Below, piece after piece: positions 2 through 20,700 of a stretch of 64,000 nt of DNA. Position 1 is the first letter of the stretch. Every line of letters starts with the position of its first letter. The stretch is from Leptodesmis sichuanensis A121. Its GTDB lineage: Bacteria > Cyanobacteriota > Cyanobacteriia > Leptolyngbyales > Leptolyngbyaceae. Location of the stretch: assembly GCF_021379005.1 (NCBI RefSeq), contig NZ_CP075171.1, forward strand, positions 1,240,001 to 1,304,000, written 5' to 3'. The notes under the pieces were generated by a model. It was not told where the DNA came from. It ran no database searches and saw only the letters and a program-made list of their open reading frames with translations. The translations under genes were made by a program, and so were the position numbers.

Positions 2-337
2 AGTGACCTGGCGCGACGGTTCAAAAATTTGGAAGTGCTGCAAAAAGATGTCGCTGCCCAGAGTCGAAGTGGCTTTGAGGCGCGACGGTTGACGGTGACT
101 CGACCAGATGGCAGCGAAATTCACCGCATGGTCTGGATGGATCAGGAACAGCAGCAACGTCTCGATCCGCTAATTGAACGAGTTCTGGCAGAATGTCCTG
201 ACCCCCAATTACGCCAAGCTTTTCTAACCCTTCTCAGCGATCGCGTGCTGGCAGAAACCTCGCAGCCTCCGCTGCCAATCAACCAACCATCAGACAAGCC
301 ATCCAAAATCCAAAATCCAAAATCCAAAATGGCCTAA
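2..337 (+). CDS. C-terminal end of an unidentified protein, cut by the window edge
   Basis: The frame is open from base 2, so only about 111 C-terminal residues are visible and the real start lies upstream. The visible part is charged and probably helical, with a Glu/Gln-rich stretch before DPLIERVLAE. I recognise no domain. The last 13 or so residues are encoded by heptamer repeats (299-332), so the ancestral stop was probably earlier. It lies just upstream of a Uma2 gene and an SspD-type gene on the same strand. In Ssp phosphorothioation loci the missing partner is the ATPase SspC, so this could be its tail. That is inference from position only. Confidence 0.5.
   Translation, partial: SDLARRFKNLEVLQKDVAAQSRSGFEARRLTVTRPDGSEIHRMVWMDQEQQQRLDPLIERVLAECPDPQLRQAFLTLLSDRVLAETSQPPLPINQPSDKPSKIQNPKSKMA
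299..332 (+). repeat. Heptamer short tandem repeat (CCAAAAT units) in a 3' coding end
   Basis: Four to five copies of a 7-bp unit close to AATCCAA run through the end of the first reading frame and stop at its TAA. The same unit type recurs inside lysC and glmS in this window. Confidence 0.85.
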
Positions 338-381
338 CCTTGCCGATAATAGAGAGGCAATCAAGCAGACGCAAACGATCT

Positions 382-1026
382 ATGCTCTTGGAGTTAAGAC
401 GGTTAGAGGTTCCGCCAGGGCAACGGTTGTTGTTGCGGGATGTCACCTGGCAAGAATTTGAAACGATTCTGGACGAACTGGGGGAGCATCGCGGCGCACG
501 TCTCGCCTATGACCAGGGCACATTGGAGATGATGATGCCGTTGCCAGAACATGAAGACGATAAGGAGATCATTGGCGATTTAATCAAAGCCCTGCTGGAA
601 GAACTGGATATGGAATTTAGAAGCCTGGGTTCTACCACGTTTAAGAAGGCGCAGACTCAGGGTTTAGAGCCTGATCAATGTTTTTACATTCAACATGAAG
701 CGGTCATTCGCGGCAAACGACGGATTGATTTAGCGATTGATCCACCTCCAGACCTGGCGATCGAAATTGACGTTACCTCTCGCACCCACCCCAGTATTTA
801 TGCCGCACTCGGAGTCCCCGAACTCTGGCAATTCGATCGCGGTACGTTGCAAATCAACATCCTCCGGGGCGATCGCTATGAACTGGTCGCTGAAAGTCCC
901 AATTTTCCAGGATTGCCGTTGGCGGAGGTGCTACCCCACTATCTGGCGGAAAGTAAAACGATTGGGCGGAATCGCACCGTCAGAGCCTTTCGCCAGTGGG
1001 TCAGGGCACAGGGGGAAAGGGGCTGA
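382..1026 (+). CDS. Uma2 family PD-(D/E)XK nuclease-like protein
   Basis: The predicted protein has 214 residues and the Uma2 layout: an N-terminal part with YDQGTLEMMMP and a later core with PPPDLAIEID followed by GVPELWQFD. This corresponds to the PD-ExV and GVxEYW segments of the family. Uma2 proteins have a restriction-endonuclease fold and are greatly expanded in cyanobacteria; their biological role is unsettled. I chose the ATG at 382. A TTG at 340 would add 14 poorly conserved residues. The gene sits between the truncated first gene and the SspD-like gene, 52 bp ahead of the latter, and is likely co-transcribed with it. Confidence 0.85.
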   Translation: MLLELRRLEVPPGQRLLLRDVTWQEFETILDELGEHRGARLAYDQGTLEMMMPLPEHEDDKEIIGDLIKALLEELDMEFRSLGSTTFKKAQTQGLEPDQCFYIQHEAVIRGKRRIDLAIDPPPDLAIEIDVTSRTHPSIYAALGVPELWQFDRGTLQINILRGDRYELVAESPNFPGLPLAEVLPHYLAESKTIGRNRTVRAFRQWVRAQGERG

Positions 1027-1078
1027 GCGAGAGCCGGGAGTTTACCGTAATGAATGAATTTGTATCAATATAACCAGT

Positions 1079-1891
1079 ATGGAAAACACTAATACCAACA
1101 AACAACCACGACATATTTTAGGGCTGTCAGGGGGCAAAGACAGTACCGCCCTGGCAATTCTGCTGCATCAGGAAGTGCCGCAGATGGAATATTTCTTTTG
1201 TGACACCCACCGGGAACTGCCAGAAACCTACGAGTATCTGGAGCGAATTAAAGCACGCCTGGGCATCCAGATTCACTATTTGAGTGCAGAGCGAGGGTTC
1301 GATCACTGGTTAGACATCTATGGGGGGGCACTCCCTTCACCCCAGATGCGATGGTGTACGAAGCAGCTTAAAATCAAGCCCCTGGAAGCCTTTATCGGTG
1401 ACGACGCAGCGATTAGTTATGTTGGGATTCGAGCCGATGAGCATCGAGATGGCTATATTTCTACCAGGCCCAATATCAAAGCAGTGTACCCGTTTAAGGA
1501 GCGGGGGCTGGTGAAAGCAGATATTTTGCGACTGCTGGAAGAAAGCGGCATTGGGTTGCCCAAATACTACGAGTGGCGATCGCGCTCTGGTTGCTATTTT
1601 TGCTTCTTTCAGCGTAAGTATGAATGGGTGATGTTACAGGAAACCCACCCCGACCTGTTTGCCAGAGCCGTAGACTATGAAAGCCAGCACAAAGATGGCA
1701 GAACCTACACCTGGACGCAGGGCGAAACGTTGCTGGAGTTGCTAGAGCGGAAAGACCAGATCATTGCCGACCACCAGAAGGCTATGGCACGAGAGGCACA
1801 GCGCCAGCCCGATCGCCCCCTGGTGGAGAGCCTGGAAGCTATCCTGGATGAGGAGGACGACACCCTGCCCTGTTTGGCGTGTCATTTATAA
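1079..1891 (+). CDS. sspD: PAPS-reductase-family ATP pyrophosphatase, SspD/DndC-like
   Basis: This 270-residue protein has the PP-loop SGGKDS at residues 17-22, typical of PAPS reductases and of the DndC/SspD enzymes of DNA phosphorothioation. Those enzymes adenylate the DNA backbone and insert sulfur delivered by a cysteine desulfurase. Cys93, Cys172 and Cys175 (SGCYFC) could bind an Fe-S cluster as in DndC, and a second pair, Cys265 and Cys268, lies five and two residues before the C-terminus. The gene is upstream of a DUF4007 (SspB-type) gene and a cysteine desulfurase, and no assimilatory sulfate genes are adjacent. That context favours DNA modification over sulfate assimilation. Residues 247-261 resemble a segment in the DUF4007 protein. 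The symbol rests on family and context, not on a database match. Confidence 0.75.
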   Translation: MENTNTNKQPRHILGLSGGKDSTALAILLHQEVPQMEYFFCDTHRELPETYEYLERIKARLGIQIHYLSAERGFDHWLDIYGGALPSPQMRWCTKQLKIKPLEAFIGDDAAISYVGIRADEHRDGYISTRPNIKAVYPFKERGLVKADILRLLEESGIGLPKYYEWRSRSGCYFCFFQRKYEWVMLQETHPDLFARAVDYESQHKDGRTYTWTQGETLLELLERKDQIIADHQKAMAREAQRQPDRPLVESLEAILDEEDDTLPCLACHL

Positions 1892-1941
1892 GCTGAACTT
1901 AAGATATTTGATATGCTCCGAGATCCTATTCAGGAGGCTTG

Positions 1942-2535
1942 ATGATCACTACCGCCATCCAACCCACTCAAACCCCTCAACCTGTACGATTCACGGTGCA
2001 GGACTATCACCGTTTAGTGGAACTTGGCTTTCTGGGCGAAGACGACCACATCGAGCTAATTCGGGGAGAACTGATTCAAATGGCAGCAAAGGGAACAGCC
2101 CACGAAACCTGTCTTCGAAGGTTGTTGCGAATTTTACCTGGGATCATTGGCGATCGCGCCACTCTCCAGTGCCAGTCACCCATCACTATCGCCTTTGATG
2201 GAGAGCCAGAACCAGATTTGGCAATCTTGAGGAACCGCGAGGATGATTATGAATCAGCCCATCCAACCCCTGCGGACACGCTCCTGGTTATGGAAGTAGC
2301 GGATTCTTCGCTAGAGTACGATCGCACGGTGAAGCTGGCTCTCTATGCTGAGGCTGCCATTCCCCACTACTGGTTGTTTAATGTCATCGATCGCACGCTG
2401 GAAGCCTACAGCGAACCCGCTCAAATTACACCAGGGCAGTTTGGCTATCTGAATCGCCGGATGGTTACGTCATCTGGTGCGATCGCCCTGCCGATGGGAG
2501 AGCAGCCCCTTGCCCTTGCCCACGTTTTTCCTTGA
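1942..2535 (+). CDS. Uma2 family PD-(D/E)XK nuclease-like protein
   Basis: The 197-residue protein shows the common Uma2 pattern: an N-terminal FTVQDYHRLVELG, then DHIELIRGELI, EPDLAIL, LLVMEVADSS and AIPHYWLFNV. The Asp of EPDLAIL and the Glu of VMEV are the expected active-site acids, and Lys331-type positions follow in TVKLALY. ATG 1942 has AGGAGG six bases upstream, so it is preferred over the TTG immediately before it. The gene follows the SspD-like gene by 50 bp, and its stop is followed closely by another Uma2 gene. A nuclease fold is likely; its substrate is unknown. Confidence 0.9.
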   Translation: MITTAIQPTQTPQPVRFTVQDYHRLVELGFLGEDDHIELIRGELIQMAAKGTAHETCLRRLLRILPGIIGDRATLQCQSPITIAFDGEPEPDLAILRNREDDYESAHPTPADTLLVMEVADSSLEYDRTVKLALYAEAAIPHYWLFNVIDRTLEAYSEPAQITPGQFGYLNRRMVTSSGAIALPMGEQPLALAHVFP

Positions 2536-2658
2536 TTGACTTTTACAAAATGCTTCGAGTCCAGCCATGGTACAGGCCCAACCGCAACTTCTATCGTTTC
2601 GATAGGAGCTTATACAATGGAGGCACCGAGAATTGGTCTCAGCGGAGAGAGATCCATC

Positions 2659-3339
2659 ATGACCCTAACGGCTCAGGAATTGGCAGACTTAATGCCCGAT
2701 GCCCGTCAACTGGAGAGCGATGAACCGGAAATGGAAAGTTCGTTACACTATGCCCAGTTGGCGCTCCTGGTGGCCTGTCTGGAATGGCTGTGGCGCGATC
2801 GCACTGACTTTTTTATCGGGGCGAATCTCTCTATTTACTTCAGCCGCGACCAGCTTAAAAAGCGCGACTTTCGCGGCCCAGATTTCTTTCTCGTCACGCA
2901 CACAGAGCGCAAACCCCGAAAATCCTGGGTGGTGTGGGAAGAAGGCGGGCAGTATCCTGACTTGATTATTGAGTTGTTGTCTCCCGCGACGGCCCAAATC
3001 GATCGCAGTCTGAAAAAAGCCCTTTACCAGGATCGCTTCAGAACTCCAGAGTATTTCTGGTTTTCGCCAGACACCCTGGAGTTTGAGGGCTATCGGCTGG
3101 TGGGGCAACACTATGAGGCCATCGCCCCCAACGAGATAGGCTGGCGCTGGAGTGAGGTGCTGGGGTTGTTTTTGGGGGTGCAGGATGGGCAGTTGCGCTA
3201 TTTTACGGAATCAGGAGAGTTGGTGCCAACTCCGCAAGAGACTGCGGCTCAGGCAATGGCAGAAGCAGCTCAGGCAGAGGCGAGATCACAGCGATTAGCA
3301 GAGCAGTTGAGGGCGCTGGGGGTGGAGCCAGATGCTTAG
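2659..3339 (+). CDS. Uma2 family nuclease-like protein, long subtype with charged C-terminus
   Basis: This is the larger Uma2 subtype. It has LMPDARQLESDEPEMESS near the start, FRGPDFFLV, KSWVVWEEGGQYPDLIIELL in the core, RTPEYFWFSP, and an Ala/Glu-rich C-terminal helix that ends in a leucine-rich segment. From ATG 2659 it has 226 residues, with a GGAGAGAG ribosome site upstream. ATG 2617, preceded by AGGAG, would add 14 residues and is a real alternative. It is the second of two adjacent Uma2 genes between the SspD-like and DUF4007 genes. The two proteins belong to different subtypes, so they are not a recent tandem duplication. Confidence 0.88.
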   Translation: MTLTAQELADLMPDARQLESDEPEMESSLHYAQLALLVACLEWLWRDRTDFFIGANLSIYFSRDQLKKRDFRGPDFFLVTHTERKPRKSWVVWEEGGQYPDLIIELLSPATAQIDRSLKKALYQDRFRTPEYFWFSPDTLEFEGYRLVGQHYEAIAPNEIGWRWSEVLGLFLGVQDGQLRYFTESGELVPTPQETAAQAMAEAAQAEARSQRLAEQLRALGVEPDA

Positions 3340-3388
3340 GCGGTTGCAAACTAAGAACCACAGAGCCACAGAGGACACTGAGAATTTA

Positions 3389-3491
3389 CTCTGTGCGCTT
3401 TGTGCCTCTGTGGTTATTCCTACAGGCTATTGAAATCCTCTCTGTGCGCTCTGTGCCTCTGTGGTGATTTCTACAGGCTATTGAAATCCTC
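3389..3491 (+). repeat. Two tandem copies of a 51-bp intergenic repeat
   Basis: Copies start at 3389 and 3440. Both contain CTCTGTGCGCT, then GTGCCTCTGTGGT, then CTACAGGCTATTGAAATCCT, with a few mismatches. A reverse-oriented copy of the CCACAGAG part lies just before, at 3357-3375, so the transcript could fold into alternative hairpins. It fills the gap between the Uma2 and DUF4007 genes. Confidence 0.85.
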
Positions 3492-3548
3492 GCCCCAAAG
3501 TCACCCAAACGCAGACAATTGACTGACTACGCTGTTTCCTGACCCGTG

Positions 3549-4487
3549 ATGCCCACAAACCCACCCCCCACCCCCCTGAAAAAAGCAGCCCTGCGCCACC
3601 TGCTGGCCCCCAGCCCCACCGCCAAACCACCCTCGGCGGCAGCTCTTCGGAATGCGAGGCAGTGGGCGATCGCAGCTAACTTACTCAATGATCAGGGGGT
3701 AACGCTTGAAGGAAAGTTAGTTGCAACGAAAGATCCCTATCTGGAAGCAACAGTTACCGATTGGTTGATCCACTTTCATTTGAGTTCTGGCGATCGCAGT
3801 TTGTGGCAATCGTTTGTATTTGAGTTTCTGCCAGAGCATTCAGAATTTACTCAAGATGAATTGTTGAACTACTTCACGAACATATTCTCGTCAGAATCAT
3901 CTGATTCATTGCGTAAGGTCACTCAGTCAATTCTGAAAACCTACACAGATTCAGAGGCGATCGCCAGCAGTCAGTTTCTCACTCACACCCAGAAAAACTA
4001 TTCAATCGGTAATCCAGATCTGTCGAATCCTTACACGACTGGATATTTATTGGCAAAGATTTGGGAGCGAGATTTTAAGGCGCGATCAGCAGTTTTGGTG
4101 GATGACATCTTGAATGCAGAGATGGGATTAGCTAGCATTCTAGGGATTCAAAAAGACCAGTTGCGGCAGCAGTTAGATGTTCTGGCTAGATATGACGTAA
4201 TTGAGCAGCGATCGGCGAAGCCCCATCTCTCCGACACAAAACCACCGATAAAAGAGGAGGGTGAATCTTCTTATCAGGTGTATCGCTGCTGGGAGACTCC
4301 AGACGAATTACTGGAGAAAGCCTACGAAAACGATAGGGCAACACCCAACCAACCGCTGATTCAGTCTCTAAGCTCGATTTTGGACGATGATGAAGACGCG
4401 CCAGATTTTTCCAGTTTCCTGGAATGGGCAACGGGCTTTATTTCGCTGGATGGCGGGTCAAACACAATCACCAGATTAGCGTCCTGA
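3549..4487 (+). CDS. sspB: DUF4007 family protein, SspB-like
   Basis: This 312-residue protein carries the central part of DUF4007: an RQWA..ANLL segment, a DPYLEATVTDWLIHFHL block near residues 62-79, then LWQSFVFEF and FTQDELLNYF. SspB, the DNA-nicking subunit of SspABCD phosphorothioation, is a DUF4007 protein. The usual N-terminal signature of the family (HExF then WLxKG) is not visible; the first 35 residues are Pro/Ala-rich and C-rich at DNA level. The start is bounded by an in-frame TGA six bases before the GTG at 3546, so no longer start exists in this frame. Residues 269-283 resemble a segment in the SspD-like protein. The 3' end overlaps a small minus-strand gene. Length is normal for the family. 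Confidence 0.7.
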   Translation: MPTNPPPTPLKKAALRHLLAPSPTAKPPSAAALRNARQWAIAANLLNDQGVTLEGKLVATKDPYLEATVTDWLIHFHLSSGDRSLWQSFVFEFLPEHSEFTQDELLNYFTNIFSSESSDSLRKVTQSILKTYTDSEAIASSQFLTHTQKNYSIGNPDLSNPYTTGYLLAKIWERDFKARSAVLVDDILNAEMGLASILGIQKDQLRQQLDVLARYDVIEQRSAKPHLSDTKPPIKEEGESSYQVYRCWETPDELLEKAYENDRATPNQPLIQSLSSILDDDEDAPDFSSFLEWATGFISLDGGSNTITRLAS

Positions 4488-4609
4488 AGGTATCGCCGCA
4501 AAATGATCAGATAGTTCTCTGCATCGCCGCGACGACGAAACCGATTCATCACAACACGCTGCATATTGGGCAGTAGACACACCACTGCCCAGACATTGAG
4601 ATAACTCAT
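4361..4609 (-). CDS. Small conserved-looking protein of unknown function, antisense to the DUF4007 3' end
   Basis: The 82-residue frame starts MSYLNVWAVVCLLPNMQRVV, followed by NRFRRRGDAENYLIILRR and LVIVFDPP. That looks like a compact beta-alpha-beta unit of a small protein type I associate with cyanobacteria, though I cannot name the family. The recognisable part covers about the first 55 residues (4609 down to about 4445). The Ser-rich tail overlaps the DUF4007 gene by 127 bp on the opposite strand and may be a read-through extension. No strong ribosome site is seen. Confidence 0.45.
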   Translation of the reverse strand: MSYLNVWAVVCLLPNMQRVVMNRFRRRGDAENYLIILRRYLQDANLVIVFDPPSSEIKPVAHSRKLEKSGASSSSSKIELRD

Positions 4610-4701
4610 AGGGGTTGTTGAAATGCTTGAATTGAGGCAAAACCAGATGAGACACTAGAAACAGTGCCTGTTGGAACGCAAAGTTGCATTCCACTCAGAA
4701 G

Positions 4702-4728
4702 TTTTACTAGAACAATTTTCTAGAAAAA
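4702..4728. promoter_or_regulatory. Candidate operator: long inverted repeat upstream of the XRE gene
   Basis: Arms CTAGAA (4707-4712) and TTCTAG (4718-4723) are separated by 5 bp. They extend outward, after one mismatch, into TTTT on the left and AAAA on the right. The site is centred about 52 bp before the XRE start, where a self-regulating XRE protein would be expected to bind. Binding itself is inferred. Confidence 0.5.
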
Positions 4729-4766
4729 TATTTCGTTTGTCAAGCGATTAGAGGAAACGTCCAGGA

Positions 4767-5003
4767 ATGCAGATCCCACCCAGTTCAGAGCAGCAACCAA
4801 CCTTGAGAGAGCTAAGAGAACGAGTTGGATTGTCTCAAGAAGGGCTGGCGCGACTGATTGGTGTCAGCAGCAAAACCATTAGCAATTGGGAACGGGGAAT
4901 CGGTGCTGCCAGCCTGACTGTTCCCCAAATGAAAGCCCTTTGTGAAGCTTTGGGGGTGACGCTCAAGGAATTACCTGATGACTTTAGTTCAGAAAGGGAA
5001 TGA
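4767..5003 (+). CDS. XRE family helix-turn-helix regulator
   Basis: This 78-residue protein is essentially one Cro/C1-type HTH: LRELRERVGLSQEGLARLIG, then SSKTISNWERG as recognition helix, then a helix ending in LGVTLKEL. GAGGAA lies 10 bp before the ATG. The gene is 28 bp ahead of the nuclease-helicase gene on the same strand and downstream of a near-perfect inverted repeat. It probably represses or controls dosage of the helicase, as small XRE proteins do in restriction-modification and toxin loci. Confidence 0.88.
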   Translation: MQIPPSSEQQPTLRELRERVGLSQEGLARLIGVSSKTISNWERGIGAASLTVPQMKALCEALGVTLKELPDDFSSERE

Positions 5004-5031
5004 TAAGCAATAGACTTTATTCACTGCTCGT

Positions 5032-7320
5032 ATGAGTGTTCCTGCATATCCTTCACCTGTCAGTCAAGAGCGATCGGCGGAAAGCAGTTCCAGCGAAGAT
5101 TTGTTTGTCGAAATTTTTCAGGAAGTGCTGGGGTTTGAGGGGGCGCAACTACTGGTTCCCCAGTATCCTGTGAAAGATATTTATGACGGAGGACGCTTTA
5201 TTGATTTTGCCTTCATCTCTCGTCTTGGTAAGTATGCCTTCGAGATTGATGGCGAGGTGTGGCACGCTCCCGATGGTGCAATGGTCAGTGCTCATGCCTA
5301 TCGTGACCAGCTACTACGACAAAATAGCCTGATTTATCAGGGTTGGAAGGTTTACCGCTGGACGGATGTTCAACTGGCTACGGAGCGGGAACGTATTCAA
5401 GAACAACTTTTACTGTTTCTAGAACGAGAAATTAAACAGGGAACGCTTGACAGTTTTCTTCCCAGGCAGGAGGCTGGTGAGGTTTCCTTGAAAGAACATC
5501 AGGCAGATGCTTTGAAGCAACTAGAGGAGTTGCGCAGTCAGGGGAAGACAATCGCCCTACTGACCCATGCAACCGGAACCGGAAAAACGCACATTGCTAT
5601 CTCCGATGCCCACCGTTTAGGGCTTAGAACGCTTTACCTGGCACATCGAAAACCGTTAATTACTCAAACTCAGGAGCGATTTTTAGAGCTTTGGCCTGAT
5701 GCGACTACAGCAATTTTTCAAAAGAAAACAGGCAAGCCAGATACACAGGTTATATTGTCCACGATTCAGGCGATCGCAGATGCCCTGGATCAATTTGACG
5801 AACGTGAATTTGGATACATCATCATTGATGAAAGTCACCATGCTGCCGCAGAAACCTATCGTAAGGTGATTAGCCATTTTCGTGCAAAGTTCATTCTTGG
5901 ATTAACTGCGACTCCAGAACGCTACGATGGACAATCCCTGACAGAAATTTTCCAGAACTGTGCGCATCGTCTTGAACTGGAAGAAGCTATACAGCGGAGA
6001 TTACTGGTGCCCATTCGCTGTATTCGGGTTAGAACCAATGTGGATTTAACAAAGGTTCGATTTAATGGGGTTGATTATCGCAGTAGCGACCTTGGTAAAG
6101 CGTTGCAGGTGCCTGATCGCGATCGCCTGATTGTAGAAACCTATATGAATCACGCTTCTGGTAAACGAGCCGTTTGCTTTTGCATTGATGTGAATCATGC
6201 TGAACGAATGGCAGAGTTGTTTCAGCAGAACAATGTGGCAGCCGCTCATGTTTCTGGGCGGATGTCCGATAAGCAAAAAGACCAGATTTTAGCAAACTAT
6301 CGATCGGGCAAAATTCACGTCCTCTGTGCCTGTGACATTCTCAACGAAGGATGGGACTCACCCGAAACAGAAGTCCTATTAATGGCCCGTCCAACCCTGA
6401 GCAAAGTAGTGTATGTCCAGCAATTGGGACGGGGCACTCGCACGGCTCCGGGTAAAGAATACTTGCTTGTTTTTGACTTCATTGACAATACCAGCCGATA
6501 CACTCAATCCCTCAGTACTCATCGTCTGTTTAAAAAACCACACTATCGACCTGGAGGGCTGGTTGCCGCTCCCTCTGACCTTTTGGCAGAGGAGGAGTCC
6601 ACTTACGCGAGGGGAGAAAAGCCGACGGCGGTTTTAGGGTTACATCTCTGGGTTGATAAGTATGAGGCGATCGACATCTTCCGTTGGCAAGACGAAGTGA
6701 AAGAGATGTATCAAACTCGTGAGCTGGAGTCTGAATTAGGCGTTGGCGATAACGTGGTGAAGAACTGGGTGCAGACCGGAAAGTTAATCCCCGATCACAC
6801 CATTCCTATTGGGAATCAAATTTATTACTATTTCAGGAAGGATCGTTTAGATGACATTCGGAAACAGTTCAACATTACACCTGTAACCAAAGACAATATC
6901 AAAGAGAAGTTTATGGAATTTGTCCGCGAAATGGACATGAGATATTCCTATAAACCCGTTCTCCTGTTAGGTCTACTGCACCTGGCTGACTCCACCGGAA
7001 AAGTCAGGGTTCAGGATCTGCTCAACTTCTTCAAGTCCTTTTACCTGGAGCGTTTACAGGCAGGCAAGATCGTTGAAAAGCCTGGTAGTCGCATGGAGCG
7101 CATTGCAGACTTGAGCGATGCTGAAATTGAGTCGATCATGCTGGCCCATCCCTTTGAAAAATTCGAGCGGCGCAAGTTTGTGCGACGGCTCAAGGAACTG
7201 ACGTTGCTCAAGTTTGAGCCTGCCTTGTGGAAACGCCTGACAGTAGAAGACAAAGAAGCGCTGAGGGCGATCGCCCAGACTGCCCTGATAGAATACTATC
7301 AACGTTTAGAAGTTGGCTAA
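5032..7320 (+). CDS. Nuclease-helicase: DUF559/Vsr-like domain fused to SF2 DEAD/DEAH helicase
   Basis: Residues about 20-130 look like a DUF559/Vsr-type PD-(D/E)XK nuclease: Asp58 (FIDFA), then Glu71-x-Asp73 (FEIDGEVWH), then YRDQLLRQNSL and GWKVYRWT. Residues about 152-500 are an SF2 helicase, with Walker A TGTGKT 181-186, DESH 266-269, TATPER 292-297 and a C-lobe with QQLGRGTRT. The C-terminal third has a MerR-like DNA-binding stretch (ELESELGVGDNVVKNWV) and no recognised enzymatic domain. It resembles the motor subunit of restriction systems. It sits between SspB-like and SspA-like genes with an XRE gene 28 bp upstream. My reading is that it restricts unmodified DNA in this locus; it could also be an independent defence gene. 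Confidence 0.85.
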   Translation: MSVPAYPSPVSQERSAESSSSEDLFVEIFQEVLGFEGAQLLVPQYPVKDIYDGGRFIDFAFISRLGKYAFEIDGEVWHAPDGAMVSAHAYRDQLLRQNSLIYQGWKVYRWTDVQLATERERIQEQLLLFLEREIKQGTLDSFLPRQEAGEVSLKEHQADALKQLEELRSQGKTIALLTHATGTGKTHIAISDAHRLGLRTLYLAHRKPLITQTQERFLELWPDATTAIFQKKTGKPDTQVILSTIQAIADALDQFDEREFGYIIIDESHHAAAETYRKVISHFRAKFILGLTATPERYDGQSLTEIFQNCAHRLELEEAIQRRLLVPIRCIRVRTNVDLTKVRFNGVDYRSSDLGKALQVPDRDRLIVETYMNHASGKRAVCFCIDVNHAERMAELFQQNNVAAAHVSGRMSDKQKDQILANYRSGKIHVLCACDILNEGWDSPETEVLLMARPTLSKVVYVQQLGRGTRTAPGKEYLLVFDFIDNTSRYTQSLSTHRLFKKPHYRPGGLVAAPSDLLAEEESTYARGEKPTAVLGLHLWVDKYEAIDIFRWQDEVKEMYQTRELESELGVGDNVVKNWVQTGKLIPDHTIPIGNQIYYYFRKDRLDDIRKQFNITPVTKDNIKEKFMEFVREMDMRYSYKPVLLLGLLHLADSTGKVRVQDLLNFFKSFYLERLQAGKIVEKPGSRMERIADLSDAEIESIMLAHPFEKFERRKFVRRLKELTLLKFEPALWKRLTVEDKEALRAIAQTALIEYYQRLEVG
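7279..7302 (+). repeat. Left copy of a 24-bp direct repeat flanking the xisH/vapC scar
   Basis: The first 18 bases, ACTGCCCTGATAGAATAC, are identical to those at 7939-7956, and five of the following six also match. The left copy lies inside the 3' end of the helicase gene. The two copies are exactly 660 bp apart. Confidence 0.8.
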
Positions 7321-7376
7321 CAGCATAGTTCTCTTGCAAAATTCTCAAAGATCTTCCTCAATCTCAAGCCCTGCCG

Positions 7377-7700
7377 ATGCCTGCTAAAGATTTCTACCAT
7401 GACACGGTAAAAACTGCCCTGATTAAAGACGGTTGGGCTATTACCGACGATCGTTGCTGGGTGCGTGTCACTTTTGCCCTCACCCTAAATCCCTCTCCCA
7501 ATTTGGGAGAGGGACTTTGAGATGGCTCGGCTGCCCTTCTCCCAGGTTGGGAGAAGGGGCTGGGGGATGAGGGTCTGCAAAGGTGATATGCTCTCTCGTT
7601 GCTGCTCAGAATCGGACTGCGCTCCGTATTTGTAGATTTAGGCGCTGAGAGACTCATTGCTGCCGAGCGGGGAACTGAAAAAATCGCCGTCGAAATCAAA
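7377..7700 (+). pseudogene. xisH: xisH-like (fdxN excision controlling factor) pseudogene, interrupted
   Basis: The 5' fragment from ATG 7377 reads MPAKDFYHDTVKTALIKDGW, the typical XisH start, and runs about 33 codons. It then enters a palindromic element and stops at 7520. A second fragment (7626-7700) resumes XisH with VFVDLGAERLIAAERG and EKIAVEIK. Codons between the fragments and the whole C-terminal half are missing. No xisI follows. XisH acts with XisI in fdxN-element excision in heterocystous species, but xisH/xisI homologues are widespread without the element. The gene is dead here. Confidence 0.8.
7477..7573. mobile_element. MITE-like double-hairpin palindromic element in the xisH remnant
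   Basis: About 97 bp containing two near-perfect hairpins: CCCTCTCCCAA with TTGGGAGAGGG, and CCCTTCTCCCA with TGGGAGAAGGG. Outer ends CCCTCA and TGAGGG are inverted. It interrupts xisH. A shorter member of the same family sits inside the cysteine desulfurase gene at 9518-9568. No transposase is encoded. Confidence 0.65.
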
Positions 7701-7870
7701 CGTATAGCCTCGTTTACGCCCCTTTTCCACCATCCGTCGCCATATCAAAACCACATCCTCACTGATGCCTAAAATGCGATCGCTAAACCAGGGACGCAGG
7801 GTGCCATCTAGCCATTCAATCAACTCCCGACGAAACTCTTCATCCTGAACCTGCTCAATGCCAAAATGAC
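7701..7870 (-). pseudogene. vapC-like PIN toxin fragment
   Basis: Read on the minus strand, the segment gives FRRELIEWLDGTLRPWF followed by DRILGISEDVVLIWRRM and KGRKRGYTF, the middle of a VapC-type PIN protein. The N-terminal LLDTN-type start and the C-terminal part with the last acidic residues are absent. The fragment joins the xisH fragment directly at about 7700, so a deletion or recombination created the junction. No antitoxin gene is beside it. Confidence 0.65.
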
Positions 7871-7938
7871 TCAGGAACTGGCTGTGCGATCGCTGTTCGC
7901 TATAGTGCGATCGCGGCACTGGTCTACTGAAGGCTGAA

Positions 7939-7962
7939 ACTGCCCTGATAGAATACGATCAA
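7939..7962 (+). repeat. Right copy of a 24-bp direct repeat flanking the xisH/vapC scar
   Basis: Matches 7279-7302 (ACTGCCCTGATAGAATAC plus most of the next six bases). Together the copies bracket the decayed xisH/vapC segment, as expected if that segment was added or rearranged through this repeat. Confidence 0.8.
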
Positions 7963-8001
7963 TGCCCGGAATCCCATTAAACTTGAGGGTCGCCCGCCAT
8001 C

Positions 8002-8601
8002 ATGATCACCACTGCTCATCCGCCCCACCTCACCCCCGACGACTACCTCCAGCTTGAAGCCCGCAGCCCCGTCAAGCATGAATACATCAACGGGCAAATC
8101 GTGGCGATGGCTGGAGCCAGTGATGCCCATGTGACGATCGCCCTTAACGTCGCAGCCTTACTCCGCTCCCACCTGCGGGGAACCGGATGCCGGGTCTACA
8201 TCTCGGATATGAAAGTCCGCCTCGATGCCTGCAATTGTTTCTACTATCCTGATGTCTTCGTCACCTGCGACCCGCGCGACCAGGAAACTTCGACCTATAA
8301 GCGCTTTCCCTGTTTGATTGTGGAAGTGCTGTCTGACTCTACCGAAGCCTTTGACCGGGGCGACAAATTTATCCACTATCAAACCCTTGACAGCTTGCAA
8401 GAATACGTTTTGATTAACAGTCGCCAGCAACGAGTCGAAACCTTCCGCCGCAACTCATCGGGTCTGTGGGTTTTACAATCCTACACCGCCGACCAACCCG
8501 CCCTGCAACTAACCAGCATCGATTGGAGAGGCACCCTCACCGACCTCTACGAAGATGTTACCCTGGAAACCCAGTCCCCTCCTGCCCCACCAACCTCATG
8601 A
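8002..8601 (+). CDS. Uma2 family PD-(D/E)XK nuclease-like protein
   Basis: The 199-residue protein follows the commonest Uma2 pattern: LTPDDYLQLE, HEYINGQIVAMAGAS, AHVTIALNVAALLRSHLRG, YYPDVFVTC, CLIVEVLSDSTEAFDRGDKF and LQEYVLINS. The Asp of YPDV, the Glu of VEVL and the downstream Lys (DKF) fit the PD-(D/E)XK active site. Its stop overlaps the ATG of the next Uma2 gene by 4 bp (ATGA). It is the first gene of a tightly coupled trio that ends with the cysteine desulfurase. Confidence 0.93.
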   Translation: MITTAHPPHLTPDDYLQLEARSPVKHEYINGQIVAMAGASDAHVTIALNVAALLRSHLRGTGCRVYISDMKVRLDACNCFYYPDVFVTCDPRDQETSTYKRFPCLIVEVLSDSTEAFDRGDKFIHYQTLDSLQEYVLINSRQQRVETFRRNSSGLWVLQSYTADQPALQLTSIDWRGTLTDLYEDVTLETQSPPAPPTS

Positions 8602-9278
8602 CCTCAGAACGACTCCTGCAATTACCTCCACTAGAGAGTGGCGATCGCCTCACCCGCGACGAATTTGAGCGACGGTACAATGCCATGCCCCAGGTCAAAA
8701 AAGCCGAACTAATCGAAGGAGTTGTTTACGTGGCCTCTCCCCTCCGCTATCGTAGTCACGGTCAACCCCACCTGCTGGTCACCACCTGGCTCGGAACCTA
8801 TTGTGCGACCACCCCTGGCGTTGAAGCGGCTGATGCTCCAACCATTCGCCTGGATGCAGACAACGAACCCCAACCGGATGCCATCCTGCGACTGACCCAA
8901 GGCGGCAGATCTACCATTAGCCCAGACGACTACATCGAAGGGGCACCCGAACTGATTGTGGAAATTGCCGCCAGTAGCGCCTCCTACGACCTGCACGACA
9001 AACTGCGAGTCTATCGCCGCAACGGCGTGCAGGAATACATCGTGTGGAGCACCTACGAGCCGCAAATCGATTGGTTCTACCTGGACGAGGGCGAGTACCG
9101 CACCTTGGCTCCTGATGCGGATAGGATTCTTCGCAGTCGTCAATTTCCAGGGCTGTGGCTGGCGGGCGATCGCCTCCTGTCCAACGATCTCGCCACTGTC
9201 CTCGCGGTGTTGCAGCAAGGCACTGCGACGCCAGCGCACCGGGCGTTTGTCGCATCGCTCCAGCTAACCCTCCCGTGA
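8598..9278 (+). CDS. Uma2 family nuclease-like protein, coupled to the cysteine desulfurase
   Basis: From ATG 8598 it has 226 residues, with FERRYNAMPQVKKAELIEG, NEPQPDAILRL, APELIVEIAASSASYDLHDK and GVQEYIVWST. This is a complete Uma2 domain with QPDA, VEIA and DK as likely catalytic positions. The start lies within the stop of the preceding Uma2 gene (ATGA). Its own stop TGA overlaps the GTG start of the cysteine desulfurase (GTGA). Double overlap of this kind usually means one mRNA and coupled translation, which ties this Uma2 to the desulfurase more firmly than mere proximity. Confidence 0.92.
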   Translation: MTSERLLQLPPLESGDRLTRDEFERRYNAMPQVKKAELIEGVVYVASPLRYRSHGQPHLLVTTWLGTYCATTPGVEAADAPTIRLDADNEPQPDAILRLTQGGRSTISPDDYIEGAPELIVEIAASSASYDLHDKLRVYRRNGVQEYIVWSTYEPQIDWFYLDEGEYRTLAPDADRILRSRQFPGLWLAGDRLLSNDLATVLAVLQQGTATPAHRAFVASLQLTLP

Positions 9279-10456
9279 TTTACCTCGACTATCACGCCAC
9301 TACACCCGTTGACCCGCGCGTTGCCGATCGCGTCTATCACTTCATGACGCAAGAGTTTGGCAATGCCAGTAGTGTGGATCACGAGTGGGGCGATCGCGCT
9401 GAAGCTGCGGTCAAGCAAGCGGCCAAACAGGTTGCAGACCTGATCGGAGCTTCACCGAGGGAAATCGTTTGGACATCCGGTGCGACCGAGAGCATCAATC
9501 TCGCAATTCAGGGGAGCCTTCTTGATCCCCTCGCCCCGCTTGGGAGAGGGGGTGGGGGTGAGGGCAAACATCGCATTGGCTTAATGCCGATCGAACACAA
9601 AGCTGTCCTTGATACCTGCCGCGCTTTAGAGAAACGAGGTTGGGCTGAGTTGGTTTATCTCCAAGTAGATCCCAAAGGTAGGCTTAACCTGAACCATTTG
9701 GAAGAAGTCTGTGCCAGGGGGCTGTCCCTGCTCTGTGTCATGGCAGCCAACAACGAGATTGGCAACATCTACCCGATGCAAACGATTGGGCAGATTGCTC
9801 AACACTACGGCATTCCTTTTCTATGTGACGGTGCTCAGGCTGTTGGTAAAATTCCGCTTCAGTTTGAGGACTGGGGCATGACTTATCTGGCCATTTCTGC
9901 CCACAAGTTCTACGGGCCTAAAGGGGTGGGAGCCTTGGTGGTGCGTCGGGGCTATTCTTTGGAGCCGATGATATTTGGCGGCGGGCATCAGCGCGGACTG
10001 CGATCGGGCACCCTCAATGTGCCAGGAATTGTCGGGTTAGGGGAGGCGTGTCGGTTGCGATCGCTGGAGATGGAAGAAGATGAGCGGGCGATCGCAATAA
10101 AACGCGACAAACTGCAAACATTGCTCCTAGAAAAAATTTCTGGATTAGTCGTGAATGGTGACACCGACCATCGATTAGCAGGTAATCTTCATCTATCGAT
10201 TCCTGATATTCCCAATAGTGCAATTATTGCTCGAGTTCGTCATCAACTTGCAATATCTACTGGCTCAGCCTGTTCATCTGGGGTTGAAGCTCCTTCTCAT
10301 GTCTTGCCAGCCCTGAATTTACCGGAAAACACCGTAGATGGGGCTTTGCGAATTGGGCTGGGCAAATTCACAACTGCTGAAGAGATCGAACAGGCCGCGA
10401 CTATTCTTTCCATAGCGGCCTATCAAGTTCGCGAATCTCTTGCTATTTCCTGTTGA
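9275..10456 (+). CDS. sspA: Cysteine desulfurase, SspA/DndA/IscS-like
   Basis: This 393-residue class-V aminotransferase fold protein begins IYLDYHATTPVDP. Lys211 in SAHKFYG should bind PLP, and Cys333 in GSACSSG is the persulfide cysteine. GTG 9275 is chosen because homology begins exactly there; longer starts would read back through the Uma2 gene. The enzyme frees sulfur from cysteine. Here it is probably the sulfur donor to the SspD-like enzyme, as DndA/SspA are in phosphorothioation, though a housekeeping IscS role is possible. Residues about 82-98 (Pro/Gly-rich, GRGGGGEG) are an in-frame insertion made by a G-rich palindromic repeat, in a surface region before IEHKAVLD. Confidence 0.85.
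   Translation: MIYLDYHATTPVDPRVADRVYHFMTQEFGNASSVDHEWGDRAEAAVKQAAKQVADLIGASPREIVWTSGATESINLAIQGSLLDPLAPLGRGGGGEGKHRIGLMPIEHKAVLDTCRALEKRGWAELVYLQVDPKGRLNLNHLEEVCARGLSLLCVMAANNEIGNIYPMQTIGQIAQHYGIPFLCDGAQAVGKIPLQFEDWGMTYLAISAHKFYGPKGVGALVVRRGYSLEPMIFGGGHQRGLRSGTLNVPGIVGLGEACRLRSLEMEEDERAIAIKRDKLQTLLLEKISGLVVNGDTDHRLAGNLHLSIPDIPNSAIIARVRHQLAISTGSACSSGVEAPSHVLPALNLPENTVDGALRIGLGKFTTAEEIEQAATILSIAAYQVRESLAISC
9518..9568. repeat. G-rich palindromic repeat inserted in frame in the desulfurase gene
   Basis: CCCTCGCCCC on the left is inverted relative to GGGGGTGAGGG on the right, and TTGGGAGAGGG lies in between, as in the element at 7477-7573. It is 51 bp long, a multiple of three, so the reading frame is kept. 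Confidence 0.7.
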
Positions 10457-10517: not shown

Positions 10518-11375
10518 TTACCTAAAACTAAAGCCGCCCATCTCCTGTTCCAGACGCATTAACCGTTCAATTCGGGCTTCTGTGGAAGGATGGGTTGAGA
10601 ATAAGTTAGCAAACGCCTGTCCAGACATGGAATTGATAATTAGCAGCGGTGAAAAGGCGGGATTGCCTTCCATCGGTAACTGACGGGCACCCATTTCCAA
10701 CCGTTGCAGCGCATTGGCTAACCCACGAGGATTGCCAGTCAGTCTTGCCGCTCCTGCATCGGCCTCAAATTCGCGTGTACGAGAAATGGTCATCTGGATC
10801 ACTGTCGCGGCGATCGGAGCCAGAATGGTCATCAACAACAGGGCGATCGGGTTAGGCCGATTGCGATCGTCGCCAGCAAATGCTCCAAACCAGTAAGCCA
10901 TTTGAGCCAGGTAAGAAATGGCTCCCCCGATCGTGGCCGCTACCGCCTGAGTGAGTGTATCCCGGTGAAGAATGTGGCTCAGTTCGTGGGCAATCACTCC
11001 TTCCAACTCATCGGCTGGCATCATTTGCAAAATGCCCTGAGTTACAGCTACAGCCGCATGTTGGGGATCTCTTCCCGTCGCAAAAGCATTGGCAGACAGA
11101 GTGGGGATGATATAAACAGCAGGGGTTGGGATTCCCGCTTTTTGCGCCAGTCTGTCCACCATCCGATAGAGTTCAGGGGCTTCAGCCGGACTCACAGGTT
11201 GAGCATTATAGGCAGCCAGAGCAATTTTGTCTGAGAAAAACCAGGAGCCTAAATTCATCACTGCTCCCAAAATCAGCCCGATTAACAGGCCCGTTTTGCC
11301 CCCGATCGCTCCTCCAAGGAACACCAACAAACCCGTTAAGAGGGCTAACAGGGCAACCGTTTTGATTTGATTCAT
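10518..11375 (-). CDS. htpX: HtpX-like M48 zinc metalloprotease
   Basis: The 285-residue protein has two N-terminal membrane segments (about 7-25 and 28-45), the zinc motif His130-Glu131-x-x-His134 (HELSH), two further hydrophobic segments (about 143-162 and 176-197) and the third-ligand region EFEADAGA. This is the normal HtpX plan and length. HtpX degrades misfolded membrane proteins at the cytoplasmic membrane. It converges with the cysteine desulfurase gene, 61 bp away. The dispersed repeat at 11441-11509 lies in its upstream region. Confidence 0.93.
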   Translation of the reverse strand: MNQIKTVALLALLTGLLVFLGGAIGGKTGLLIGLILGAVMNLGSWFFSDKIALAAYNAQPVSPAEAPELYRMVDRLAQKAGIPTPAVYIIPTLSANAFATGRDPQHAAVAVTQGILQMMPADELEGVIAHELSHILHRDTLTQAVAATIGGAISYLAQMAYWFGAFAGDDRNRPNPIALLLMTILAPIAATVIQMTISRTREFEADAGAARLTGNPRGLANALQRLEMGARQLPMEGNPAFSPLLIINSMSGQAFANLFSTHPSTEARIERLMRLEQEMGGFSFR

Positions 11376-11440
11376 ACCCTTTTCTCCTGATCAACAGTCC
11401 AGTATTAGAGATGTCTACGATCGTGGGAATTCATGTAAGC

Positions 11441-11509
11441 CAAGTCCAACGAGAGAACGGTCGTTTTCCGATCAGAGAAACTCCGATTCTGGACTTGGAC
11501 AAGGTTTAA
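11441..11509 (+). repeat. Dispersed ~65-bp intergenic repeat, copy A
   Basis: Contains GAGAACGGTCGTTTTCCG, ATCAGAGAAACTCCGATTCT and GGACAAGGTTT. It matches the reverse complement of 18790-18858 over nearly its full length and 26901-26961 over most of it. It lies upstream of htpX. Confidence 0.75.
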
Positions 11510-11637
11510 TTTTTCTTTACTCTTATTATCTCAATCGCTTGCCCCCTATCGGAAGGGAGGAAAACTCGACTGGGACGGTACGGGAGGGAGGGAGTTAAAA
11601 ATTGGACAGAAGCCGGAGTTATTGATTCCGGTGCCGA

Positions 11638-12639
11638 TTAATGACCCAGTACTTCAATGGCAAAGAGTTGCTGCATTGAGTCCAGGTAGGGTTTGAAGAG
11701 TTTGACTTGGTGAAGCTCCAGGCACTGATTCATCGCTTGTTCCAGTAACTCGACCAGAGAGCGTACCAGCCACCATTCTACTTTCAGGGGTGGATAGAGC
11801 ATCATACACAATGGAAACAGTTCTTCCTGAAAGGCGGCAATGCTATTTTCCAAAGTGCAGACGCAGAGATAAATCTGAAACATTTCCACATCTCGAATGC
11901 TAGAAACCTGAACTGTGGGGGACGACAGGGAACCACTGAAGGACTGGTAGTTGCCCACATCTTGAATCACTTGCTGACACACTTCTTGGGCAATGCGACC
12001 ACTCTGAGGCAACAGGGCTTGCACTGCAGCAAGTGGGGCAGAATGTTCAGGATGATTAGCAGCCACTTCGTAAGCCCGCTGCAGAGGCATATACAGGTGA
12101 TCATCGAGTACCTTAAAGTAGTCCTCAATCAGAATCCGCTCAGCATCAGAGAGTGGTTCCAGTAATTTTTGCCCAGTATAGTGAATTTGCATACTCACAA
12201 ACCCCAGGATGCGAGGGTCGGCAGTTGATACTGATTTGCGAACTCGACCACACTCTGGGCCAATGACGGTCGCCAGACTTTGAGGCGCTTTGCCCTGATG
12301 GTAGACCTCTAATACTTTTTCAAACAGTCGATGAGAGTCGCGGGCAATTTGCCAGGGGTCAATATAGTGGGGGTTGATCCCATGCCGTTGCACCTCCGCG
12401 GTTAACAAAGACTCCGTTTTACTCCACGCCTGAGCACTGGCAAAGTTAAGAGACTTCAGCAATTTTGCTACCGTTTGTGCCCGTCCTTCCAGAGAAGAGA
12501 CTTCACTGAATCGATCCCGATCGCGGTTACTCAGCGCATGGGAGTAACTTAGTAAGCTCTGGACATACCGTTTTCCCCACAATTTTGCCAACGCAGGAAA
12601 ATCTTCTCGATCGCCAGGATCAGACTCAGGATTAGGCAT
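11638..12639 (-). CDS. Conserved-looking cyanobacterial protein of unknown function
   Basis: The 333-residue protein is soluble, has no membrane segment or signal peptide, and appears mostly alpha-helical. I recognise no catalytic motif. Landmarks are an acidic N-terminus, RYVQSLLSYSHALSNRDRDR, DPWQIARDSHRLFEKVLEVY, and a C-terminal helical part with WWLVRSLVELLEQAMNQCLE. It stands alone, 153 bp from the end of lysC on the same strand. Codon use and HIP1 sites match the core genes, so it looks resident, not recently acquired. Confidence 0.8.
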   Translation of the reverse strand: MPNPESDPGDREDFPALAKLWGKRYVQSLLSYSHALSNRDRDRFSEVSSLEGRAQTVAKLLKSLNFASAQAWSKTESLLTAEVQRHGINPHYIDPWQIARDSHRLFEKVLEVYHQGKAPQSLATVIGPECGRVRKSVSTADPRILGFVSMQIHYTGQKLLEPLSDAERILIEDYFKVLDDHLYMPLQRAYEVAANHPEHSAPLAAVQALLPQSGRIAQEVCQQVIQDVGNYQSFSGSLSSPTVQVSSIRDVEMFQIYLCVCTLENSIAAFQEELFPLCMMLYPPLKVEWWLVRSLVELLEQAMNQCLELHQVKLFKPYLDSMQQLFAIEVLGH

Positions 12640-12792
12640 AACTCTTGATCAAATAAGTACACACCCCAAAATTATGATTCCCCAGAACCGACTTAAACAA
12701 GTAAACGAAAAGAAACGCTAAAGAAATCCTTTAGGTATTGCGACAGACGTAATTCAGCATTGATTTTTTATTTATCAGAGAGTTGCTGTCAG

Positions 12793-14730: not shown

Positions 14731-15133
14731 GAGAAGAGCAGGACGTAAGCCGGGTTCTGTTCTCCCAATTGCGGGGCAATCAGGGGACGGTTATCTATCT
14801 GGATCATCTGTTGCCAGATGCCTCAAGCGGACTCGTAAAGATGCAGGACATCCTTACCGGAGCGGGAAAAAGACCAACCGTTGCTCCTGCTGCCTTGCTT
14901 CCAACCGGGGTTTACCGAGCCAGCACCTCTCGATGCTGCTGGTGCGCTCTTACCGCACCTTTGCACCCTTACCAGAGGAATTCATAATTATGAATTCCCC
15001 AGGCGGTATGTTTCTGTGGCACTATCCTCACGATCGCTCGCACTGGGCGTTACCCAGCAGGTTTGGTCTTTCGGAAGCCCGGACTTTCCTCGGACTGTTG
15101 GCACAATCCGCAACCGTCTCGCCTACTCTTCTC
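14731..15133 (-). ncRNA. rnpB: RNase P RNA
   Basis: On the minus strand the RNA starts near 15133 with GAGAAGAG, which pairs with CTCTTCTC at its 3' end near 14731 (helix P1). Conserved blocks include GAGGAAAGTCCGGGCTTCC (15066-15095 region) and the 3' block ending AACCCGGCTTACGTCCTGC. About 403 nt, as expected for cyanobacterial type A RNase P RNA, which cleaves tRNA leaders. A 22-bp perfect palindrome centred near 14987 forms an extra hairpin in a variable arm. Confidence 0.95.
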
Positions 15134-19531: not shown

Positions 19532-19923
19532 GATCCCCTACTCGGAGCGTCCTATTGCTCACAACTGTTGACTCGTTTAATAAAACTCTGTAGTTTAGAA
19601 TACTTAAACTTACTCCAGAACCGTTTTTTGTACTCCTTGTTACAGATTTGAGCGTTTTGGCTCTTTTTCAAACGGCTAAAGCCTTTAATATTCAAGGCTG
19701 AGGCGGATCAAACGCAATGTGAGCCGTAACCAGAGTAAAGCATTTGCCATCAAGGTCAGGCTGTTTGCGATCGCGCTGCCACCGGTTCAGGAGTAGCCCT
19801 ACTGCCTGAGAGAAGCTGAGTGCCTCAAGGTTAACAGTATATTAACCGAAAACGATTGGTTTGACCGTTGTGTCCCATCTTTGAGTATTCTCTTAATGGC
19901 TCCTAACTTAACACTAGGTATCT
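19532..19923. promoter_or_regulatory. Divergent ntcA/fabI intergenic region
   Basis: This 392-bp region separates the two divergent genes and must hold both promoters. Apart from the NtcA box I see an AT-rich TTAACAGTATATTAACC stretch near 19830-19847 upstream of fabI, and no open frame. Confidence 0.6.
19590..19603. promoter_or_regulatory. NtcA-binding box (GTA-N8-TAC)
   Basis: The sequence GTAGTTTAGAATAC is a perfect palindromic consensus site upstream of ntcA. I could not find a well-placed -10 hexamer with certainty. Confidence 0.8.
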
Positions 19924-20700
19924 ATGCTGGACTTGACAGGAAAAAATGCCCTCGTAACGGGGATCGCTAACAACCGCTCGATCGCTTGGGGGATCGCCCA
20001 GCAATTGCATAAGGCCGGAGCGAACATTGGGATTACCTACTTACCAGATGAAGAACGGCGGGTGAACAAAATTGCCGAACTGGTAGAACCCGTCCAACCC
20101 AGTCTATTCCTGCCTTGCAACGTGCAGGATGATGCTCAAATTCAAGACACCTTCGACACAATTCAGGACAAATGGGGCCGACTGGACATTTTGATCCATT
20201 GCCTCGCCTTTGCCAATAAAGAAGATTTAACAGGTAGTTTTTCAGACACCTCGCGCCAGGGATTTGCCACCGCGCTGGATGTCAGTACCTATTCCCTGGT
20301 GAAACTCTGCGGAGTCGCTAAGCCTTTAATGACGGAAGGTGGTAGCGTTGTCACCCTCACCTACTTGGGCGGTGTGCGTGTGATCCCCAACTACAACCTG
20401 ATGGGTATTGCCAAAGCTGGACTGGAAATGAGTGTGCGTTATCTGGCGGCTGACCTTGGCCCCCAAAATATCCGGGTGAACGGTATCTCCGCTGGCCCCA
20501 TTCGGACTCTCGCCTCTTCTGCCGTCGGTGGCATTCTCGATATGATTCGTCGCGTGGAAGAAGTGGCTCCCCTGCGCCGTACCGTCACTCAAACTGAAGT
20601 GGGCAATACCGCCGCCTTCCTCTGCAGCGATCTCTCCAGCGGCATCACTGGCCAGATTATTTACGTCGATGCTGGATACGAAATTTTAGGTATGGCCTGA
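19924..20700 (+). CDS. fabI: Enoyl-[acyl-carrier-protein] reductase (NADH)
   Basis: The 258-residue short-chain dehydrogenase-like protein has the FabI cofactor motif GIANNRSIAWGIA and the active-site Tyr/Lys pair in YNLMGIAKAGLE, plus RVNGISAGPIRTLA. It catalyses the last step of each fatty-acid elongation cycle. Length and layout are normal. It is transcribed divergently from ntcA. Confidence 0.97.
   Translation: MLDLTGKNALVTGIANNRSIAWGIAQQLHKAGANIGITYLPDEERRVNKIAELVEPVQPSLFLPCNVQDDAQIQDTFDTIQDKWGRLDILIHCLAFANKEDLTGSFSDTSRQGFATALDVSTYSLVKLCGVAKPLMTEGGSVVTLTYLGGVRVIPNYNLMGIAKAGLEMSVRYLAADLGPQNIRVNGISAGPIRTLASSAVGGILDMIRRVEEVAPLRRTVTQTEVGNTAAFLCSDLSSGITGQIIYVDAGYEILGMA

Follow-up and report, generated by a model that had tools for sequence, protein, structure and literature searches.

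DNA-phosphorothioation systems of the SspABCD type combine the gene order sspB-sspC-sspD and an sspA gene with an adjoining effector module, either SspE or SspFGH, according to the accessible part of the report on them (mBio 2021, PMC8092258), from which the marking role of these protein families is taken here. Type-4 bacteriophage exclusion (BREX) systems, in the portion of the source available (PMC12839542), consist of a DUF4007 protein, a 3'-phosphoadenosine-5'-phosphosulfate (PAPS) reductase, BrxC, PglZ and BrxL. Here we describe an ssp locus of the cyanobacterium Leptodesmis sichuanensis A121, at the left edge of a 64,000-nucleotide stretch of DNA (the window; G000:C1:1240001-1304000) of a single-contig genome of 5,348,817 bp. 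The locus has the same order of sspB, sspC and sspD, the sspA gene and an adjoining effector module, and has homologs of SspB, SspC and SspD in common with type-4 BREX. It differs from the SspE and SspFGH combinations, as far as the accessible part of their description goes, in that the effector module consists of an SspB-fold protein, an XRE regulator and a helicase with a restriction endonuclease (REase)-like domain, and in that Uma2 genes bracket the slot.

The gene order is sspB, sspC, U1, sspD, U2, U3, DUF4007b, xre, helicase, U4, U5, sspA, where U1-U5 are the Uma2 genes. We consider it likely that the locus encodes a full SspABCD system whose effector slot, located between sspD and sspA, is exchangeable, and that the proteins have the marking, restriction, DUF4007b and XRE roles proposed below. 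Ssp systems with alternative effectors are already known; what appears to be new, within the bounds of a limited search, is the additional SspB-fold protein that ends in an SspD-like tail, the use of a REase-helicase as Ssp effector, the exchange scars and the clade-specific Uma2 brackets. We did not meet these four features in the accessible parts of PMC10853773, PMC12839542, PMC8092258 and PMC9646914, in a search that did not extend to subscription papers or preprints.

Gene content of the ssp locus

By gene content, the locus encompasses a complete SspABCD set, with DNA phosphorothioation as its predicted activity. Family scans and the left flank together bear out the initial annotation, which had proposed an Ssp phosphorothioation locus at positions 2-10456; all the genes it listed there were found, all on the plus strand, and the three that it named as ssp subunits fall into the expected families by homology search (SspD, 382 bits; DUF4007, 47.9 bits; cysteine desulfurase, 447 bits). 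Its guess that the truncated gene at the left edge is sspC was correct as well: extension of the contig to the left, which it had called for, completed sspC and revealed sspB just upstream. Positions 2..337 (+) are the in-frame C-terminal end of an SspC of 1174 amino acids that starts outside the window at G000:C1:1236813 (PADLOC SspC, 1485 bits at full length; the piece in the window corresponds to model positions 1046-1104 of 1104). The sspB gene (G000:C1:1235878-1236816; 312 amino acids), which precedes sspC and overlaps it by 4 nt, matches SspB with 405 bits, and its product is related to the solved SspB (DUF4007) structure, PDB 6juf, at E 3e-60. The PAPS-reductase-like ATP pyrophosphatase gene is of the SspD type, as had been claimed (1079..1891, +; PADLOC SspD, 382 bits), so that sspB, sspC and sspD follow in this order on one strand, with one Uma2 gene between sspC and sspD. 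The cysteine desulfurase gene sspA (9275..10456, +) has a GTG start; the SspA and DndA models score it alike, at 447 bits each, and the initial assignment to the SspA type holds by context.

The DUF4007 gene within the window (DUF4007b; 3546..4487, +; PF13182, 47.9 bits) had initially been taken for sspB. What stands of that assignment is the SspB-like fold of the modelled product; the gene is a second copy, rejected as the SspB of the set given that the ordinary SspB encoded upstream scores far higher with the DUF4007 model (332.7 vs 47.9 bits). The top PDB matches of an AlphaFold2 model built from a 17-row alignment (predicted local distance difference test score, pLDDT, 81; predicted template modelling score, pTM, 0.77) are the SspB structures 6lb9 and 6juf (E 2.7e-7 to 8.7e-7; TM-scores 0.51-0.59), and by this model DUF4007b has a divergent SspB fold. 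The C-terminal tail of DUF4007b and the C-terminus of SspD have the pattern PxxPLxxSLxxILD in common (BLOSUM62 score 60), a likeness that was first spotted by eye and then scored; when the last 60 residues were shuffled 5000 times, this score was never reached. Besides DUF4007b, the pattern occurs in 18 of 35 SspD open reading frames (ORFs) and in one unrelated ORF (L165). The tail is present in the four loci of the clade described below that have a long DUF4007b (G000, the A121 genome itself, G025, G015 and G064), and the remaining 13 alignment rows stop before it, L038 because its contig ends there. We infer that the tail is a docking site shared with SspD; that it originated as a piece of sspD copied into the neighboring gene is an equal possibility.

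The effector is bordered on its left by a small XRE/HTH_3 regulator gene (4767..5003, +; 78 amino acids), which had been overlooked initially; G025, G015 and G064 have a similar frame. The effector gene (5032..7320, +) codes for a superfamily 2 (SF2) helicase with an N-terminal REase-like domain and a possible C-terminal helix-turn-helix domain (HTH_17, 15.3 bits, below the cut-off of 27), and its PADLOC matches include mREase_IV (183.5 bits) and PbeA (104 bits). The nuclease-helicase suggested initially matches ResIII (122.9 bits) and Helicase_C (56.8 bits) in its helicase part, and the match of its REase part is weak and sub-threshold. A REase-like domain is likewise joined to an SF2 helicase in the Dnd and Pbe restriction helicases (TIGR04095, PbeA) and in type IV-like helicase-nucleases; to these, only partial matches were obtained here, and DndFGH and the Pbe partners had no match among the locus proteins scanned. 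Among ten locus ORFs scanned, there was likewise no match to SspF, SspG or SspH (for the helicase, among the best 25 of 26 families) or to PglZ or BrxL, in which the locus differs from type-4 BREX and is not assigned to it, and the single PADLOC SspE model used (PDLC02785) had 0 matches in this genome.

Effector exchange between sspD and sspA

For comparison, further ssp loci were annotated in two sets: 14 loci in 13 of 96 other related genomes, and 19 in a sample of the phylum in which SspD was found in 39 of 386 genomes (of these 39 genomes, four were already included, and 16 with weaker matches, below 300 bits, were left out). In the annotated cyanobacterial loci, the contents of the sspD-sspA stretch vary from locus to locus, and this interval is an exchangeable effector slot. 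Its occupants include SspFGH (e.g., L028), an HNH_4 protein (L026, L032), a DndB-like protein (L033; 30.9 bits, cut-off 29.1), a PbeA-like helicase with a HATPase protein and a weakly PLD-like protein (L035), and DUF4007 with a kinase-NERD/PglZ-like protein and BrxL (e.g., L039). The last arrangement, with DUF4007b followed by the kinase-NERD/PglZ-like protein and BrxL in the same slot, makes the relatives L031, L039 and L084 similar to type-4 BREX; by comparison with type-4 BREX, the A121 DUF4007b has a shortened N-terminal part and the extra SspD-like tail.

Six loci are mutually close (G000, G025, G078, G015, G064 and G022), and the five of them with sspB form one clade in the SspB tree (support 100/96). 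The clade was first noticed by its Uma2 genes and then tested on this tree; G025, where no sspB was found, was added by DNA identity. The tree has 44 rows, after removal of repeats (L138, L143, L131 and L139) and of rows below 250 amino acids or 250 bits; because L127 and L029 are one and the same gene of G064, the label changes twice there. Within the clade, the slot contains SspFGH in G022, which itself carries the described SspABCD-SspFGH combination, an HNH_4 protein in G025 and G015, a DndB-like protein in G078 and, in G064, the same helicase as in A121, broken by insertions. A search of 97 genomes (E <= 1e-100) found the helicase body in G000, G050 and, broken, G064 and did not find it in G025, G078, G022 or G026. 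In G050, the helicase (L230) is 89% identical, and a transposase separates it from a nearby partial SspC; SspD was not found in that genome.

The end of the helicase gene persists as a scar behind other effectors in these four genomes without the body (G025, G078, G022 and G026), shorter and more diverged in G022 and G026. The scar region, that is, the 3' end of the A121 helicase gene with its flank (7148..7459, +), is 95-96% identical in G025 and G078. The G025 locus is close to the A121 one at the DNA level in the sspC part (96%), U1 (100%), sspD (95%), U2 (92%), U3 (98%) and DUF4007b (97%), with identity of only 72% in the xre region; an HNH gene then replaces the helicase body, and what is left of the helicase gene is its final 173 bp, at 96% (312 bp with flank, 95%). 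In G078, the start of DUF4007b is followed by the DndB-like gene (29.2 bits, cut-off 29.1), the helicase end (96%), U4, U5 and sspA. SspFGH is accompanied by a 128-bp helicase-end piece (85%) in G022, and G026 (L241), where SspD was not found, contains SspF, SspG and SspH pieces, a 205-bp helicase end (70%), two Uma2 genes and sspA. Ahead of the helicase piece, both G022 and G026 have a 5' fragment of an sspA. The helicase-end scars and sspA fragments of the relatives mark the slot as the site of replacements that followed one another and left remnants. The joined stretch of G022 (19548-20460) has a second U5, then an sspA 5' fragment and what, by eye, resembles another helicase-end piece.

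Several observations count against parts of the system proposed here. The halves of the G078 locus lie on two contigs, the ends of which both match the A121 locus at about 3644-3698, so that their join is a reconstruction, and in G025, sspB, sspA and a right-hand Uma2 gene were not found in the stretches covered. As regards the effector module, DUF4007b and SspB are 29% identical over 110 amino acids only, the nuclease domain of the effector matches MTES_1575 with 21.7 bits, below the cut-off of 38.2, and the AlphaFold2 model of the helicase N-terminus has a pLDDT of 42.3.

Uma2 genes in one clade of ssp loci

The five Uma2 genes reported initially among the ssp subunits all pass the PF05685 cut-off of 27 bits (74.6-141 bits) and, unlike the 80 other Uma2 matches in the genome, adjoin or overlap ssp genes. 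U1 (340..1026, +; start uncertain; PF05685, 77.1 bits; PADLOC PDC-S17, 137 bits) lies between sspC and sspD, as in G025, with which it forms a near-identical pair with zero amino-acid differences. U2 (1942..2535, +; 97.9 bits) and U3 (2536..3339, +; start uncertain, ATG at 2617; 74.6 bits) are located 3' of sspD, and U4 (8002..8601, +; 141 bits) and U5 (8598..9278, +; 109.6 bits), which overlap by 4 nt, precede sspA. U2 is found 3' of sspD in 6/6 clade genomes (identity of the orthologs: G025, 93%; G078, 92%; G015, 84%, with another Uma2 gene between sspD and U2; G064, 77%; G022, 73%), and U3 is in place in G025, G078 and G015. On the other side of the slot, U4 orthologs, 90% identical, precede sspA in G078 and G022, and U5 lies directly before sspA in G078, G064 and G022, with a relative likewise placed in G026. 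The stop of U5 and the start of sspA overlap by 4 nt (GTGA) in all five genomes with both genes (G000, G078, G064, G022 and G026), and U5 is probably co-translated with sspA in this clade.

The ratio of nonsynonymous to synonymous substitution rates (dN/dS) relative to the A121 orthologs is 0.09-0.26 for U2-U5 and, where measurable, 0.06-0.15 for the core ssp genes, with the near-identical U3 pair with G025 (0.026) and the saturated U2 pair with G022 set apart. Pairs printed as 0.000 with infinite dS are saturated and uncounted, and several U5 pairs, with dS >1.7, are near saturation; the values cover only the Uma2 genes of the locus, not solo copies, and so are not locus-specific. The Uma2 genes are under purifying selection and persist through effector changes.

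Uma2 genes are abundant in this genome, with 85 matches, of which 82 are above cut-off and 80 lie outside the locus. The locus is the densest Uma2 place in the genome (5 in 14.6 kb); when 85 Uma2 genes were placed at random, some 14.6-kb stretch contained 5 in 22 of 2000 simulations, although this uniform placement ignores Uma2 clustering (10 neighboring pairs are less than 1.5 kb apart). Two more Uma2 genes lie in the window away from the locus, at 30943-31254 and 62111-62494. Across the annotated loci, Uma2 genes were counted with a purpose-built hidden Markov model (every match at 1e-5 inside the clade, those >40 bits elsewhere); at loci with no sspA in view, the count extended 6 kb beyond the 3' end of the final core gene. 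The expected numbers derive from PF05685 genome counts at 1e-10 (the A121 genome was entered as 77 and is listed as 75 at E <= 1e-10, which changes the expected numbers by less than 0.01). The eroded locus of G026, with 2 Uma2 genes and no SspD found, was excluded from both groups. At the 28 ssp loci outside the clade, 3 Uma2 genes were seen vs 2.62 expected, and we rejected Uma2 as a general Ssp component on this count; the initial suggestion that these proteins could be restriction or accessory parts gets no support for Ssp systems in general. The survey of ssp neighborhoods proposed at that stage thus found Uma2 fixed in one clade, where 21 genes were seen in six genomes vs 0.78 expected, and at background elsewhere, with variable effectors in the slot. 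A wider contig scan, in which 8 of the best 80 loci had Uma2 anywhere in the stretch, overlaps the other sample (L138 = G015, L143 = G282) and was not used for rates.

A functional part for the Uma2 genes within this one clade is possible. That the Uma2 pairs are structural parts of the Ssp locus in the clade, co-translated with the marking enzymes and serving as backup nucleases or drivers of effector exchange, is a tentative proposal to which we give a minor share of probability, and several facts tell against it. The six clade genomes represent one ancestral locus, so that their Uma2 count is not independent, and the other 28 loci stand at background. Only G000, G022, G064 and G078 (the last across two contigs) were seen to have Uma2 genes on both sides of the slot; in G015, the contig ends. 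U5-like genes occur in 66 of 97 genomes (E <= 1e-60), relatives of U2 (71-85%) have no Ssp genes nearby in G046, G096 and G352, and the U2 tree (12 rows, with a usable ORF from 2 of 7 requested outgroup loci) does not separate linked from solo copies. Much of this would be expected if the Uma2 genes were passengers, that is, copies of an abundant family that came to lie in an ssp operon and then passed down one clade of loci, a serious contender that we rate somewhat below an even chance. In line with it, 32 of 33 other genomes contain 7-76 Uma2 matches each (0 in G099), and no Uma2 gene was found in the covered stretch of the sister locus L076. Passengers are harder to reconcile with five distinct copies at one locus, with orthologs that stay in place while effectors change, with a start-stop overlap kept in 5/5 genomes and with dN/dS values that resemble those of the core genes.

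Persistence beside the marking genes through effector changes would also suit Uma2 proteins that serve this Ssp clade as accessory restriction nucleases and attack DNA, unmarked or marked, alongside the main effector; we regard this role as unlikely. PADLOC lists Uma2 families as phage-defense candidates PDC-S03 and PDC-S17, and in the alignment, the residues that we take to be a PD-(D/E)xK-type catalytic motif look intact in copies 2-5; copy 1, judged by eye, lacks the lysine of the other copies, other ssp loci are not enriched in Uma2, and a limited literature search, without subscription papers or preprints, found no paper joining Uma2 with phosphorothioation. Somewhat more doubtful still is a role as recombination brackets, with the Uma2 genes as conserved arms, or their products as nucleases, promoting exchange of effector cassettes. 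DNA identity to G078 climbs inside the edges of the locus (sspD, 75%; U2, 90%; U3, 93%; helicase tail, 96%; U4, 89%; U5, 82%; sspA, 80%), and this rise fits exchange of a block including U2-U4; the breakpoints lie between the Uma2 genes, and G022 has a second U5 with an sspA fragment. Yet the breakpoints vary, falling in DUF4007b, the helicase end and sspA and none in Uma2, the rise is clear only against G078 (identity to G022 is 90% in U4, 67% in U2, 71% in U5 and 71% in the helicase tail), other clades swap effectors in the same slot without Uma2, and any conserved flank might act as an arm.

Genomic neighborhood and working model

Upstream of sspB and divergent from it lies a gene of the TIGR04096 family, 'DNA phosphorothioation-associated putative methyltransferase' (L009:7353-9650, -; 894 bits), and the same placement relative to sspB recurs in G078, G015, G022 and other loci. 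Between this gene and sspB there are an HSDR_N-like gene and a dynamin-like GTPase gene (L009:9461-10093 and 10935-12773, -), surrounded by IS66, Mutator and another transposase; an HSDR_N-like gene lies beside the methyltransferase gene in G022, too. The sspC genes of G015 and G064 are 84% and 78% identical, respectively, to that of A121 over the first part and 52% and 48% over the end, and because identity drops toward the end, the sspC-sspD junction seems to be a recombination mosaic. Further afield, the second loci of G419, G449 and G318 (L095, L096 and L098) contain DUF4007b and PglWZ-like genes, with SspD not seen in the stretch, and those of G419 and G449 have a TIGR04096-type methyltransferase gene close by. 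Small genomes (1.7-2.2 Mb) of another class (G148, G300, G098, G112 and G119) have three to six SspD matches each, and among 72,556 plasmid records, 61 code for an SspD relative (E <= 1e-40), of which the top seven, at >70% identity, are cyanobacterial. Elsewhere in the window are RNase P RNA (14731-15129), transfer-messenger RNA (22017-22402) and the nitrogen-stress RNA NsiR1 (39875-39928).

Under the working model of a complete SspABCD system with an exchangeable slot, SspA and SspD would, by homology, supply activated sulfur, and SspB and SspC would select and nick DNA, with the result that one strand is marked. DUF4007b may read target sites and use its SspD-like tail to dock onto one of the partners of the marking complex. 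From the architecture of the module, the helicase-nuclease would restrict DNA without the mark, and the XRE protein would hold effector expression down until the host is marked. The Uma2 genes, in our view, encode maintained proteins that, in this clade, are probably co-translated with the marking genes.

The scars show effector replacement in progress, with different weapons on related backbones and one pair at 92-100% DNA identity. If the Uma2 pairs are indeed structural parts of the locus, one marking system would be repeatedly rearmed with different weapons. The locus makes the swap of a restriction module under a constant epigenetic mark testable, and the very common, functionally obscure Uma2 family gains a defined genomic context.

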